A DNA stretch of 33,104 bases, taken from NCBI GenBank assembly GCA_030147925.1, contig JASBUK010000080.1, forward strand, positions 1 to 33,104. The letters are read 5' to 3'. This DNA comes from Trueperaceae bacterium. Its GTDB lineage: Bacteria; Deinococcota; Deinococci; Deinococcales; Trueperaceae. Position numbers and translations under genes: made by a program. Positions 8,917 to 13,188 of the stretch are shown here, in pieces; within the stretch, counting starts at the first letter, position 1; every line of letters starts with the position of its first letter. Below the pieces are notes generated by a model. It was not told where the DNA came from, searched no databases, and saw only the letters and a program-made list of their open reading frames with translations.

Positions 8917-10041
8917 TTAGACACCAACTTCATGTGCAAGGGCTTTGTCTGGAGTGATGGTTTCTATATCAAAAGCCTTGCCCACAGCGGCGTAAGTTAG
9001 TTGTCCCTGATGGGTATTCAGACCCTTTAGCAGTGCCGGGTCTTGTTTTAGTGCGCTTATACCCTTATTGGCCAGTTCCAGCGCATAGGGCAGCGTTTGA
9101 TTAGAAAGAGCGGTGGTGCTGGTATTGGGTACGGCGCTGGGCATGTTGGCCACACCATAATGAATGACATCGTCAATAACATAGGTGGGATTGTCGTGAG
9201 TGGTGGGTCTGCTGGTTTCAATGCAGCCGCCCTGATCTACGGCTACGTCTACGATGACGCTGCCGGGTTTCATGATCTTTAGCATGTCTTTGCTGACCAA
9301 GTGCGGGGCTCGAGCCCCGGGTATCAGCACCGCGCCTATCAAGAGGTCAGCCCTAGTTACCATCGTGGCAATATTGGCGGGATTACTGGCCAAGGTCTGG
9401 ATGCGACCTCCAAAAACATCGTCAAGATACTGCAAGCGGCTGTGGCTGACGTCGATAATGGTTACTCGGGCTCCCAGACCCAGAGCAATTTTGGCGGCAT
9501 TGGTGCCTACCACACCTCCACCTAGAACGACCACTTCGCCGGCTTGCACTCCAGGGACACCACCAAGCAAGAGCCCGCGTCCGCCTAAAAATCTCTCTAA
9601 GTGATAAGCGCCCACTTGTGGAGCCATGCGGCCCGCTACTTCACTCATGGGTACTAATAGGGGCAGGCTGCCATTGCTAAGTTGTACTGTTTCGTAAGCG
9701 ATGGCGGTAGTGCCGGATTTAAGTAGCGCTTCGGTCAGTGGCCTGTCTGCTGCCAAATGAAGATAGGTAAAAAGCAAAAGGTCATCACGCAAAAAGCCGT
9801 ATTCTTGGCTAACCGGCTCCTTGACCTTTAGCACCATGTCCTGCGCCCAGGCTTCGGCGGCATTATCAACTATGTTAGCGCCTTGTGCCTCATACTCACT
9901 GTCGCTAAAACCGCTGCCCTCACCTGCAGCACTTTCCACAAAGACCTGGTGGCCGTGCTCAATAAAGGCTCGAGCAATACCGGGGGTGGCAGATACACGG
10001 TACTCATGACGCTTGACTTCCTTGGGGATACCAATATTCAC
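8917..10041 (-). CDS. ald: Alanine dehydrogenase
   Basis: A 374-residue NAD-dependent enzyme that interconverts L-alanine with pyruvate and ammonia. The N terminus MNIGIPKEVKRHEYRV is characteristic. Catalytic Lys74 (KVKEP) and His95 (FTYLHLAADR) are in place, and the Rossmann motif VVLGGGVVGTNAAKIALGLG binds NAD. The length equals that of characterised homo-hexameric enzymes (about 371). The start is GTG, supported by a Shine-Dalgarno AAGGAG about 8 nt upstream. A possible promoter (TTGACC at 10080-10085 and TATTCA at 10058-10063, both on the minus strand, 16 nt apart) lies just upstream, but it would leave a very short leader. It is transcribed alone. Confidence 0.97.
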   Translation of the reverse strand: MNIGIPKEVKRHEYRVSATPGIARAFIEHGHQVFVESAAGEGSGFSDSEYEAQGANIVDNAAEAWAQDMVLKVKEPVSQEYGFLRDDLLLFTYLHLAADRPLTEALLKSGTTAIAYETVQLSNGSLPLLVPMSEVAGRMAPQVGAYHLERFLGGRGLLLGGVPGVQAGEVVVLGGGVVGTNAAKIALGLGARVTIIDVSHSRLQYLDDVFGGRIQTLASNPANIATMVTRADLLIGAVLIPGARAPHLVSKDMLKIMKPGSVIVDVAVDQGGCIETSRPTTHDNPTYVIDDVIHYGVANMPSAVPNTSTTALSNQTLPYALELANKGISALKQDPALLKGLNTHQGQLTYAAVGKAFDIETITPDKALAHEVGV

Positions 10042-10409
10042 AGTCTGTCTCCTTTTTTGAATAGTTTAAAGCAAGGCCTGGTCAATGCCAAAGTGTTGTA
10101 AATTTTAGTTTCGGCACAATCACGAAGAGGAATATGCCTCAGAAGCAAATATCTATATCGGAACATCACAATAAGTATTTATGCCACTCACAGCACAAGC
10201 GGTAGATATTCTTTAGACAACCCCGCATAATTATGTGACTCAAGCCTGTTTTAGGATAGGAAGAAGCCGATTAGCAACAGACAAACGCAATCCAACGTTA
10301 AAGCAGTGTCCATAAACACGCTATTTACTACCTAAAGTGAAAAGGCCCTGCACCCCATACACTCTATATTCATACTGAAATCTGGACGAAATTTGTGCGA
10401 GAATAACTT
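10042..10409. other. Intergenic region between divergent ald and the restriction-modification cassette
   Basis: 368 nt, visibly richer in A+T than its surroundings, with no convincing gene. It should contain the ald promoter and the promoter of the endonuclease gene. A TATATT box lies at 10365-10370 but no matching -35 was found. No controller-protein gene, inverted-repeat boundary or attachment site was recognised. It may be part of the acquired segment that carries the cassette. Confidence 0.5.
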
Positions 10410-11291
10410 ATGTCCGAGCAGCCACTAGCCGAGGTTTTTGGCTTCCCAATCGATAATGACAGCACCGAAGCACAGCGCTACAGGAATAACAAGCTCTGCC
10501 CCTTCAATAACAAGGTCCCAAACTGTACAAAGGATAAGGCCAACGACCCCTTAGGAGTTTGCAGCATTCACAACAGCAGTCATGTGGCTATTACCTGTCC
10601 CATACGTTTCAGAGAAGGCTGGTTGATCGCTCAAGAGGCAGCTGCTTTTGTTTTCCCGCAAGACACTAACTGGACGACCCTGACGGAAGTGCAGCTAAAG
10701 GATGGAGAGGGAAAATCGGCCGGGAATATCGATGTCGTGATCGTTGCTTACGACAATAAAGGGCAAGTTATAGATTTCGGCTCACTTGAAGTGCAGGCGG
10801 TCTATATTTCCGGCAATGTACGGTTGCCGTTTGAGCATTATATGGAAGCACCGAGCAGCCACGGCAATATGGATTGGCGTGGCCAACCGAATTATCCCCG
10901 CGCTGATTATCTATCGTCTTCTCGCAAGCGCTTACTGCCGCAATTGTTGTATAAGGGGGCAATTCTCAACGCATGGGGAAAAAAGCAAGCGGTCGCATTG
11001 CACAAGGACTTCTACAACGAGCTTCCTGAGTTGCCCGAGGTCGATCGGGAAAATGCAAAAATGGCGTGGTTGTTGTACGATCTTAAACACGACCCCCACA
11101 GAAAACGTTATTACTTAGAAAGCTATAAAACGGTTTACACTGATTTCGAGCTGGCACTATCGAAAATCTCGACGCCGAAGATTGGCGCGCAAGAGACTTT
11201 CGTTAAACACCTGCAAGAAAAACTGGATGATAAGCTCGACAATGAAAATGCATCTGATACTTACACGATCTTAGACGATAGATTGACCTGA
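10410..11291 (+). CDS. NotI-family type II restriction endonuclease
   Basis: A 293-residue protein matching the NotI endonuclease family. Four cysteines (Cys30 in CPF, Cys39 in NCTK, Cys51 in GVCS, Cys63 in TCPIR) reproduce the N-terminal metal-binding Cys box of NotI. The nuclease core follows as Asp108 (NIDVV) and FGSLEVQAVYISG with Glu127 and Gln129, corresponding to NotI's YGVLEIQTM segment with its E-x-Q variant of the PD-(D/E)xK site. The later stretch LSSSRKRLLPQLLYKGAILN also resembles NotI. It is shorter than NotI itself (about 380). The gene overlaps the methyltransferase start by one base (TGATG), forming a classic restriction-modification pair. The recognition sequence cannot be read. 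Alignment is from memory of NotI. Confidence 0.8.
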   Translation: MSEQPLAEVFGFPIDNDSTEAQRYRNNKLCPFNNKVPNCTKDKANDPLGVCSIHNSSHVAITCPIRFREGWLIAQEAAAFVFPQDTNWTTLTEVQLKDGEGKSAGNIDVVIVAYDNKGQVIDFGSLEVQAVYISGNVRLPFEHYMEAPSSHGNMDWRGQPNYPRADYLSSSRKRLLPQLLYKGAILNAWGKKQAVALHKDFYNELPELPEVDRENAKMAWLLYDLKHDPHRKRYYLESYKTVYTDFELALSKISTPKIGAQETFVKHLQEKLDDKLDNENASDTYTILDDRLT

Positions 11292-12178
11292 TGAGCACAC
11301 AAGTACAGCCTCCTTTGTTTCCAAAACTGACAACAAAGACCATTGTTAATGTCGCTTCTGTAAAACACCTCAGCCCCTTCCGGTATCCGGGTGGAAAGAC
11401 ATGGCTGGTGCCGCGCGTGCGTCAGTGGATTCTCAACCTGCCCAAACGACCCGGCACATTGGTTGAACCCTTTTGTGGTGGCGGCATTGTGAGTCTGACC
11501 GTAGCTGCGGAAAAACTGGCCGAGCGTGTGGTAATGGTGGAACTGGATGGCGACGTGGCGATGGTGTGGCGCGTATGTCTGAGTGAGAGCGCTGAATGGT
11601 TGGCACAGCGTATCCTGCACTTCGAATTAACGCCAGATAATGTACAGTCCGTCATTGAACAAGAGGATTTGTCGCTCGAAGAGCACGCCTTCAAAACTAT
11701 CCTAAGAAATCGGGTAAACCGCGGTGGCATTCTTGCACCCGGCTCTGGAGTTATCAAGAATGGTGAAAATGGTAAGGGCATATCTTCGCGCTGGTATCCC
11801 GAAACGCTTGCAAAGCGCATCCGAGGTATTTTCAGCATTCGGGAGCGCATTGATTTTATGCAGGGGGACGGCATTGGTGTAATTGAGCAGTTGTCAGAAG
11901 ATGATGAGGCTGTATTTTTCATTGATCCACCTTACACGGCTGGGGGAAAGAAGGCGGGAAGCCGCCTCTATACTCACTTTGAGCTTGACCATGAAAGACT
12001 TTTCACGGTGGCGGCTGCAGCCGCTGGGGACTTTCTAATGACTTACGACAACGCCGATGAGATTCACGAATTGGCTACGCGCCAAGGTTTTGATACAGAG
12101 ACTATTGCGATGAAGAACGCGCATCATGCCGAAATGACCGAACTGCTTATAAGTCGTGATCTCGATTGGGCACGTTGA
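11291..12178 (+). CDS. D12-class (Dam-like) DNA adenine methyltransferase
   Basis: A 295-residue S-adenosylmethionine-dependent DNA methyltransferase, the probable protective partner of the overlapping endonuclease. The order is FRYPGGKTWL (30-39, the D12/Dam opening motif), EPFCGGGIVSL (59-69, motif I that binds AdoMet), then IDPPYT with DPPY at 212-215 (motif IV, catalytic for exocyclic amino methylation, normally N6-adenine in this class). The target-recognition region lies between about 90 and 200. Translation is coupled through the TGATG junction. The cassette carries none of the GCTCGAGC octamers that dot the neighbouring genes, consistent with later acquisition. A true NotI site has no adenine, so this system must recognise another sequence if the methyl group goes on adenine. 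Confidence 0.9.
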   Translation: MSTQVQPPLFPKLTTKTIVNVASVKHLSPFRYPGGKTWLVPRVRQWILNLPKRPGTLVEPFCGGGIVSLTVAAEKLAERVVMVELDGDVAMVWRVCLSESAEWLAQRILHFELTPDNVQSVIEQEDLSLEEHAFKTILRNRVNRGGILAPGSGVIKNGENGKGISSRWYPETLAKRIRGIFSIRERIDFMQGDGIGVIEQLSEDDEAVFFIDPPYTAGGKKAGSRLYTHFELDHERLFTVAAAAAGDFLMTYDNADEIHELATRQGFDTETIAMKNAHHAEMTELLISRDLDWAR

Positions 12179-12240
12179 TAGATTTAATGACCTGGGCCAA
12201 AAGCTTTTAGCAGTTAAGGAAAGCTTTACTCAGCAAAAGC

Positions 12241-13188
12241 CTACTGGTCTTGCCAGACACGCAGCAGCCGCATTTTGCCCTGCTGGGTTTCGGCTACCGC
12301 CACGAGCTTTTGCTCTGGGTCAATTAAGCCGACGCGTTCATCTAGCTCTAAACTGAGCCGCTGTCCCTGGCGTACCCGCTGACTGTCACGTTCGTTTAAG
12401 CCGATGAGCGGATAGGGTAGAGCCTCGGTCATGGATAGACCTGGAGCAGTGGCTATGTCTTTAAGTTTAATGGCTTGCTCGAGCCCGTTCTTACCTGCTC
12501 TGGTGCGCACCAGGCCGCTTAGGTGGGCGGCTTGTCCTAGCGAAGCACCCAAGTCTCGGGCAAAGGCGCGGATATAGGTACCGGCTGTGACCTTAAGAGA
12601 AAACAAGGCCGTAGGAAAATCTCCCAAGGTCTCCGGCAGAGCAAAGCTAATGCCTTGTGGCTGCGGACGCCAATCCTGATGTTCGGCAGAAAAGCCGAAA
12701 TGTTGCGCTAAGTTTTCGCGCTTAGCGGCAAAATCCAACAAAGTCATTTGCTCATAACCGGCGGCTCGAGCACTGAGCTCGAGCTTTTTACCCTGCCGGG
12801 CCGCCTCATAACCTTTGACCCCGCCCTTTTTAATGGCCGAATACTGCGGGGGTAGCTGCTCGCTAAGGCTCAAAAAGGGTGGCAGCGCCGCTGCTATCTC
12901 ATCGGTAGTCAGCTCTAAAGCATTGCTGTAGTGATCAATTGGACCTTCGGCGTCGAGTGTAGGTGTGCTGGCACCAAAGGATATCCAGGCCAGATAGTGT
13001 TTGCTAGAGGCGGTCAAAAAAGGGGAGAGCTTGGTGGCTTCTTCGGTTAGCAGCACCAGCACTCCGGTTGCCAGTGGGTCGAGTGTACCCGCGTGGCCTA
13101 CGCGTCGAGTTTTTAAGAGCTTTCTCGCTCGTGACACGACATCGTGCGAGCTCATATTAAGAGGTTTGTCAACGATAAAAACCGGCAT
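12241..13188 (-). CDS. truB: tRNA pseudouridine(55) synthase TruB
   Basis: A 315-residue enzyme that converts U55 of the tRNA T-loop to pseudouridine. It begins IVDKPLNMSSHDVV; the catalytic motif GHAGTLDPLATGVL contains nucleophile Asp37. YSAIKKGGVKGYEAARQGK and GTYIRAFARDLG are further family motifs. The C-terminal ~70 residues (after LSGLVRTRAG) form the extra TruB/PUA-like domain. A TAGTGT box 6 nt before the ATG is a weak leaderless candidate; no well-placed Shine-Dalgarno is seen. It is convergent with the methyltransferase (62 nt gap, no clear terminator). Confidence 0.97.
   Translation of the reverse strand: MPVFIVDKPLNMSSHDVVSRARKLLKTRRVGHAGTLDPLATGVLVLLTEEATKLSPFLTASSKHYLAWISFGASTPTLDAEGPIDHYSNALELTTDEIAAALPPFLSLSEQLPPQYSAIKKGGVKGYEAARQGKKLELSARAAGYEQMTLLDFAAKRENLAQHFGFSAEHQDWRPQPQGISFALPETLGDFPTALFSLKVTAGTYIRAFARDLGASLGQAAHLSGLVRTRAGKNGLEQAIKLKDIATAPGLSMTEALPYPLIGLNERDSQRVRQGQRLSLELDERVGLIDPEQKLVAVAETQQGKMRLLRVWQDQ

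Follow-up and report, generated by a model that had tools for sequence, protein, structure and literature searches.

The window, i.e. the whole stretch of 33,104 bp analysed here (contig JASBUK010000080.1 of the Trueperaceae bacterium assembly GCA_030147925.1), carries a two-gene cassette between genes read as ald and truB (Table 1). Both open reading frames are intact as positioned in a preliminary description of the locus, and the stop codon of the first gene and the ATG of the second share one nucleotide (TGATG). No mobile element is in sight, and a search for target-site duplications flanking the cassette gave no convincing one.

Table 1. Features of the cassette and its surroundings, in window positions
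Feature	Position	Strand	Evidence and remarks
Gene read as ald	8917-10041	-	Left neighbour of the cassette
AT-rich intergenic spacer between ald and the cassette	10042-10409		368 bp, 39.4% GC; presumed promoter region
NotI-family restriction endonuclease, 293 aa	10410-11291	+	PF12183, model, conservation; Cys4 C30/C39/C51/C63; predicted catalytic D108, E127, Q129
D12-class (Dam-like) DNA N6-adenine methyltransferase, 295 aa	11291-12178	+	PF02086; AdoMet motif EPFCGGG from residue 59; catalytic DPPY 212-215
Short spacer between the methylase gene and truB	12179-12240		Right-hand boundary of the cassette
Gene read as truB	12241-13188	-	Right neighbour of the cassette

The protein encoded by the first gene matches Pfam PF12183 (NotI) over residues 22-236 (E 4.4e-57, 193.6 bits, cut-off 22), a profile that all 54 aligned relatives match as well. 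Its cysteine box is made up of C30, C39, C51 and C63, and the segment read as LEVQ corresponds to E127-V-Q129. All 47 aligned relatives have D108, E127, Q129, C39, C51 and C63, and 46 have C30. When the AlphaFold2 model (pLDDT 91) was compared with the PDB by Foldseek, the sole significant matches were those to NotI (3c25/3bvq; E 1.9e-9, TM 0.68). The top four are NotI chains with TM of 0.67-0.68, followed by a match with E 0.67. Identity in the structural alignment with NotI is 13-15%, and direct PDB searches with the window protein or profiles, by sequence only, did not reach NotI, so the relation to NotI itself is remote. In NotI, glutamine replaces the usual catalytic lysine, and Fe is held in the Cys4 motif (PMC4081073); the four cysteines of the window protein are likewise predicted to form a structural metal site, as in the NotI family. 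Profile match, fold and intact motifs demonstrate that the nuclease is a member of this family, as had been read from its Cys box and LEVQ segment, the structural agreement with NotI being that of a predicted model.

The second protein matches the D12 profile PF02086 (E 5.9e-10, 39.7 bits, cut-off 22). The D212-P-P-Y215 and AdoMet motifs are invariant in 44 relatives, and the structures nearest to its model (pLDDT 86) are 7m6b, EcoDam and DpnM. Judged by family, the protein should be an N6-adenine methyltransferase; profile and one-nucleotide overlap accord with the preliminary description, which saw such an enzyme in the overlapping gene with the DPPY motif. Because the partner belongs to an adenine-methylase family, adenine is also expected in the target, as proposed there. 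The window methylase shares its fold and DPPY motif with the D12 methylases Dam and DpnM, at about 14-20% identity. It differs from them in being paired with a NotI-family nuclease, and recognition of GATC is not expected.

A scan of a genome collection disclosed 260 relatives. The best 80 of them are 55-67% identical and are distributed over at least 15 phyla, as judged from record titles, one archaeon among them. In 72 of these 80 loci a D12 gene directly adjoins the nuclease gene, usually on its 3' side and convergently in two, while five of the remaining eight end at a contig edge. Nuclease and methylase distances are correlated (Mantel r 0.76, p 2e-4), so the two genes appear to travel together. 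The same pair is carried by a Thermus brockianus plasmid, and a more distant form of it by Aeromonas and Achromobacter plasmids. Distant NotI-family genes are partnered by C5 methylases, and in one locus (L003) by a different methylase. Closer to the window, 36 genomes of its family were sampled and the nuclease was found in none, and PF12183 is matched in 5 of the 111 genomes of the phylum sample (Deinococcota).

The cassette is also present in putatively viral sequences, as four contigs of the IMG/VR collection (L094-L097) contain it whole, with nucleases 56-60% identical to that of the window. Nuclease genes of the window type are split, stopped or truncated in several genomes (G305, G323, G391, G215, G253, G264 and G162), as expected if the cassette has been repeatedly gained and lost. 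Relatives of the methylase on Bdellovibrio and Deinococcus plasmids (55% identical, L253 2477-3361, and 44% identical, L254 2495-3436) are apparently orphans with no recognisable nuclease neighbour; their neighbours are either a protein like DNA polymerase III alpha or hypothetical proteins with no match. A clue to specificity was sought from other nucleases beside these close methylase relatives, and none was gained.

Acquisition of the cassette had previously been argued from an AT-richer composition and from the lack of an octamer, GCTCGAGC, carried by neighbouring genes. The difference in composition is marginal, with GC of 47.8% in the nuclease gene, 50.9% in the methylase gene and 51.0% in the whole window, and clear AT-richness is confined to the 368-bp upstream spacer. 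The octamer occurs in 37 copies in the window, with 0.66 expected, and the cassette indeed holds zero copies. This is a weak argument for acquisition, since 6.6% of equal-length stretches elsewhere in the window, together with several neighbouring genes, are also devoid of it. Horizontal acquisition itself is well supported on other grounds, namely the patchy spread (absence from all 36 family genomes, presence in many phyla) and the conserved pairing, and the cassette is real, intact and probably active.

We have also addressed the question of the target through avoidance of sites in genomes that carry the cassette. In an exploratory step, palindromes were counted in the flanks of carriers only, where CAGCTG was singled out (48 seen, 245 expected); CAGCTG was then counted in whole genomes, some carriers in this test having also belonged to the exploratory set. 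The median in 50 carrier genomes is 52 CAGCTG per Mb, compared with 244 in random sequence. Medians of intact carriers and non-carriers are 9.5 and 256 per Mb in Chlorobiales (p 8e-7), 21 and 115 in Nitrospiraceae (p 0.03), and 40 and 100 in Anaerolineales (p 0.06). The three groups bear the names of the genomes, chosen by record title, on which sampling was centred. Pooled over the three taxa, CAGCTG is 0.19-fold in intact carriers, i.e. about five-fold depleted (stratified permutation p 1e-5), in a comparison that controls shared ancestry only in part and among genomes that may hold other CAGCTG-specific systems. The reversed-pattern control GTCGAC drops far less, from 124 to 80 per Mb in Chlorobiales carriers.

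Specificity of the depletion was assessed in sampled stretches of genomes (carriers, 720 kb; non-carriers, 583 kb). CAGCTG ranks first of 64 palindromes (z -7.65), with an observed/expected ratio (O/E) of 0.09 in carriers and 0.40 in non-carriers, and with z -7.7 it also leads the 2,080 hexamer classes, whose runner-up has -4.8. Taxon by taxon, its rank among the 64 palindromes is 1st, 2nd and 3rd. AGCT is unaffected (1.02), and no effect of flanking bases on the CAGCTG depletion was detected. Anaerolineales genomes with distant NotI-family genes have 316 CAGCTG per Mb, as opposed to 40 for the window type (p 0.001), and three broken copies in Chlorobiales are found in genomes with 82-313 per Mb, compared with 9.5 in intact carriers. 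For nine of the 15 Chlorobiales carriers, a longer solo form of the nuclease is the only representative or one of the representatives. This form may be one inherited clade; the depletion holds for window-like cassettes alone (p 0.004) and when the solo form is collapsed to one point (p 0.0015).

This longer form comprises NotI-like proteins of 374-495 aa that have an additional region at the N-terminus, observed in Chlorobiales loci L245, L246 (genomes G246 and G270), L247 and L248. A D12 gene is absent from the examined stretch around them, and sometimes two convergent genes are present. The two proteins in L246 read EVH in place of the EVQ of the window nuclease. Genomes with these longer proteins have only 16-33 CAGCTG sites each.

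In Deinococcota, the phylum of the window, support for CAGCTG as the target is weak. In 112 kb sampled from the window's own genome, its O/E is 0.32, compared with 0.91 in non-carrier members of the family, and it is only 13th of 64 palindromes, twelve being lower. In the pooled test of the phylum it is 15th, and several GC-rich palindromes, CGGCCG included, differ more. By whole-genome counts, three of the four carriers in the phylum are among the lowest CAGCTG densities of their own groups, and the fourth is not. The window's genome has probably gained the cassette fairly recently, with a loss of CAGCTG that is partial. No more than 13-31 CAGCTG sites are present in each of four Deinococcota genomes with no PF12183 match (G045, G048, G049 and G052), which suggests that another pressure acts against CAGCTG in this phylum.

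Exceptions also exist elsewhere. Intact carriers with no depletion were found (for example G232, G282 and G158, with 306, 365 and 640 CAGCTG per Mb, respectively), and so were strongly depleted non-carriers, among them about 10 of 52 Chlorobiales and a large part of one Nitrospiraceae cluster. Broken copies in Anaerolineales are mixed, several of them being located in CAGCTG-depleted genomes.

Two other palindromes were considered as targets and rejected. The NotI core, CGGCCG, is very scarce in the window's own genome and scarce in Anaerolineales carriers. It does not, however, rank with the leading differences when the three taxa are pooled, and no adenine methylase could shield it. In the 112 kb sample of the own genome it is nearly absent (O/E 0.02). 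The octamer GCTCGAGC is in excess in a large part of the phylum, genomes that lack the cassette among them. It is a highly iterated palindrome, with 2,625 copies in the 2.98 Mb of the whole own genome and sites in the window that include positions 307, 1363 and 12477. Most of the Deinococcota genomes sampled are rich in it (reaching 3,827 copies in one, as opposed to 3 of the reversed control), though it is rare in one genus (g20). It can be likened to HIP1 of cyanobacteria and does not depend on the cassette.

Avoidance of CAGCTG suggests one site common to both enzymes. We consider it probable, on the whole, that the cassette is a complete and mobile Type II restriction-modification system whose members cut and protect the same 6-bp site, CAGCTG, methylated at adenine. 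As a statement about the target, this is made with some confidence for the family, and somewhat less for the window member. The nuclease, a PD-(D/E)xK endonuclease of the NotI family that has E-x-Q in its active site and a predicted structural metal site of the Cys4 type, would cut CAGCTG, and the Dam-like methyltransferase would methylate the adenine N6 in the same site and so protect host DNA. The site cut would thus be a common one of 6 bp and not a rare one of 8 bp.

The alternative that fares best assumes an adenine-containing target other than CAGCTG, the shortage of CAGCTG being due to other systems specific for it or to shared lineage history. The scarcity of the site in several non-carriers, the lack of a distinctive signal in the window's own phylum, and the partial control of phylogenetic dependence are all in its favour. 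We nevertheless regard it as rather unlikely, since the association recurs in three separate taxa, at or near the top of the palindrome ranking in each, is missing with distant NotI-family genes, and is mostly missing with broken Chlorobiales copies. A further alternative, in line with the rare-cutting specificity expected in the preliminary description, is that the target is a longer, rare, adenine-containing palindrome of 8 bp. NotI itself cuts 8 bp, the window nuclease matches its fold, the partner is an adenine methylase, and a site of this length would exert little selection and might escape a depletion analysis; the depletion of CAGCTG in carriers is, however, independent of flanking bases, as a 6-bp site predicts, and makes an 8-bp target improbable unless the CAGCTG signal has another cause. 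An abortive-infection system resembling PD-lambda-5, the compacted form in which an RM+Abi system occurs in prophages (PMC9519451), is very hard to reconcile with the data: the methylase matches the PADLOC model PD-Lambda-5_B at E 1.5e-42, along with several Type II methylase models, but the B component is itself a D12-type methylase and the match thus unspecific, and the partner is a NotI-family protein with no match to PD-Lambda-5_A.

With CAGCTG as the probable target, the cassette can be set beside known systems. The NotI restriction-modification system (GCGGCCGC; PDB 3c25, 3bvq) shares with it the PF12183 domain, the fold found by Foldseek, the four cysteines and E-x-Q in the nuclease, and differs in that the window cassette has an N6-adenine methylase as a partner and a proposed 6-bp target that contains adenine. 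Cassettes of a NotI-family nuclease and a C5 methylase, found on plasmids of Sedimenticola, Paraburkholderia and Pseudomonas amygdali and in Pseudomonas phage vB_Pae_U8, have the same nuclease family and two genes; their nucleases are 25-30% identical to that of the window, and the target is presumably different. CAGCTG is not depleted in the few loci of this kind examined. Homologous cassettes are those of Thermus brockianus pTbrSNM4-1c, where the pair is plasmid-borne, and of Calidithermus roseus, with nucleases 55-58% identical, the same gene order, and genes that overlap or abut. A literature search for this nuclease-methylase pair found no paper. The pairing as such is already in databases and hence not new there, because in pTbrSNM4-1c NCBI annotates a NotI family restriction endonuclease beside a DNA adenine methylase. 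The product of M.PvuII is N4-methylcytosine, m4C (PMC10073500). The PvuII system has the same target, CAGCTG, as that proposed for the window cassette. Its nuclease is of a different family from NotI, and with both nuclease family and methylation type being different, the cassette would be an independent PvuII isoschizomer.

A single symmetric base pair separates CAGCTG from the central hexamer of the NotI site, CGGCCG, a suggestive fit that was noticed after the fact. Tentatively, a broader scenario can be outlined, in which the NotI fold switched its core from CGGCCG to CAGCTG together with a swap of the cytosine methylase for an adenine one, and the resulting cassette spread through bacteria and into at least one archaeon, reducing CAGCTG in its hosts. 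Some Chlorobiales would then keep a derived, N-terminally extended NotI-like protein with no adjacent methylase, in nearly CAGCTG-free genomes.

As far as could be checked, CAGCTG would be a new specificity for the NotI family. That part of the original expectation of a new rare cutter is retained, while rare cutting gives way to a testable 6-bp prediction, in view of the avoidance of CAGCTG irrespective of its flanks. The NotI family thereby gains a widespread branch whose partner and proposed specificity are unlike those of NotI. It would offer a natural experiment in which a well-studied restriction fold changes its target by one base pair, along with an exchange of the partner. More generally, the avoidance of a site in different hosts can be used to propose what an uncharacterised cassette recognises.
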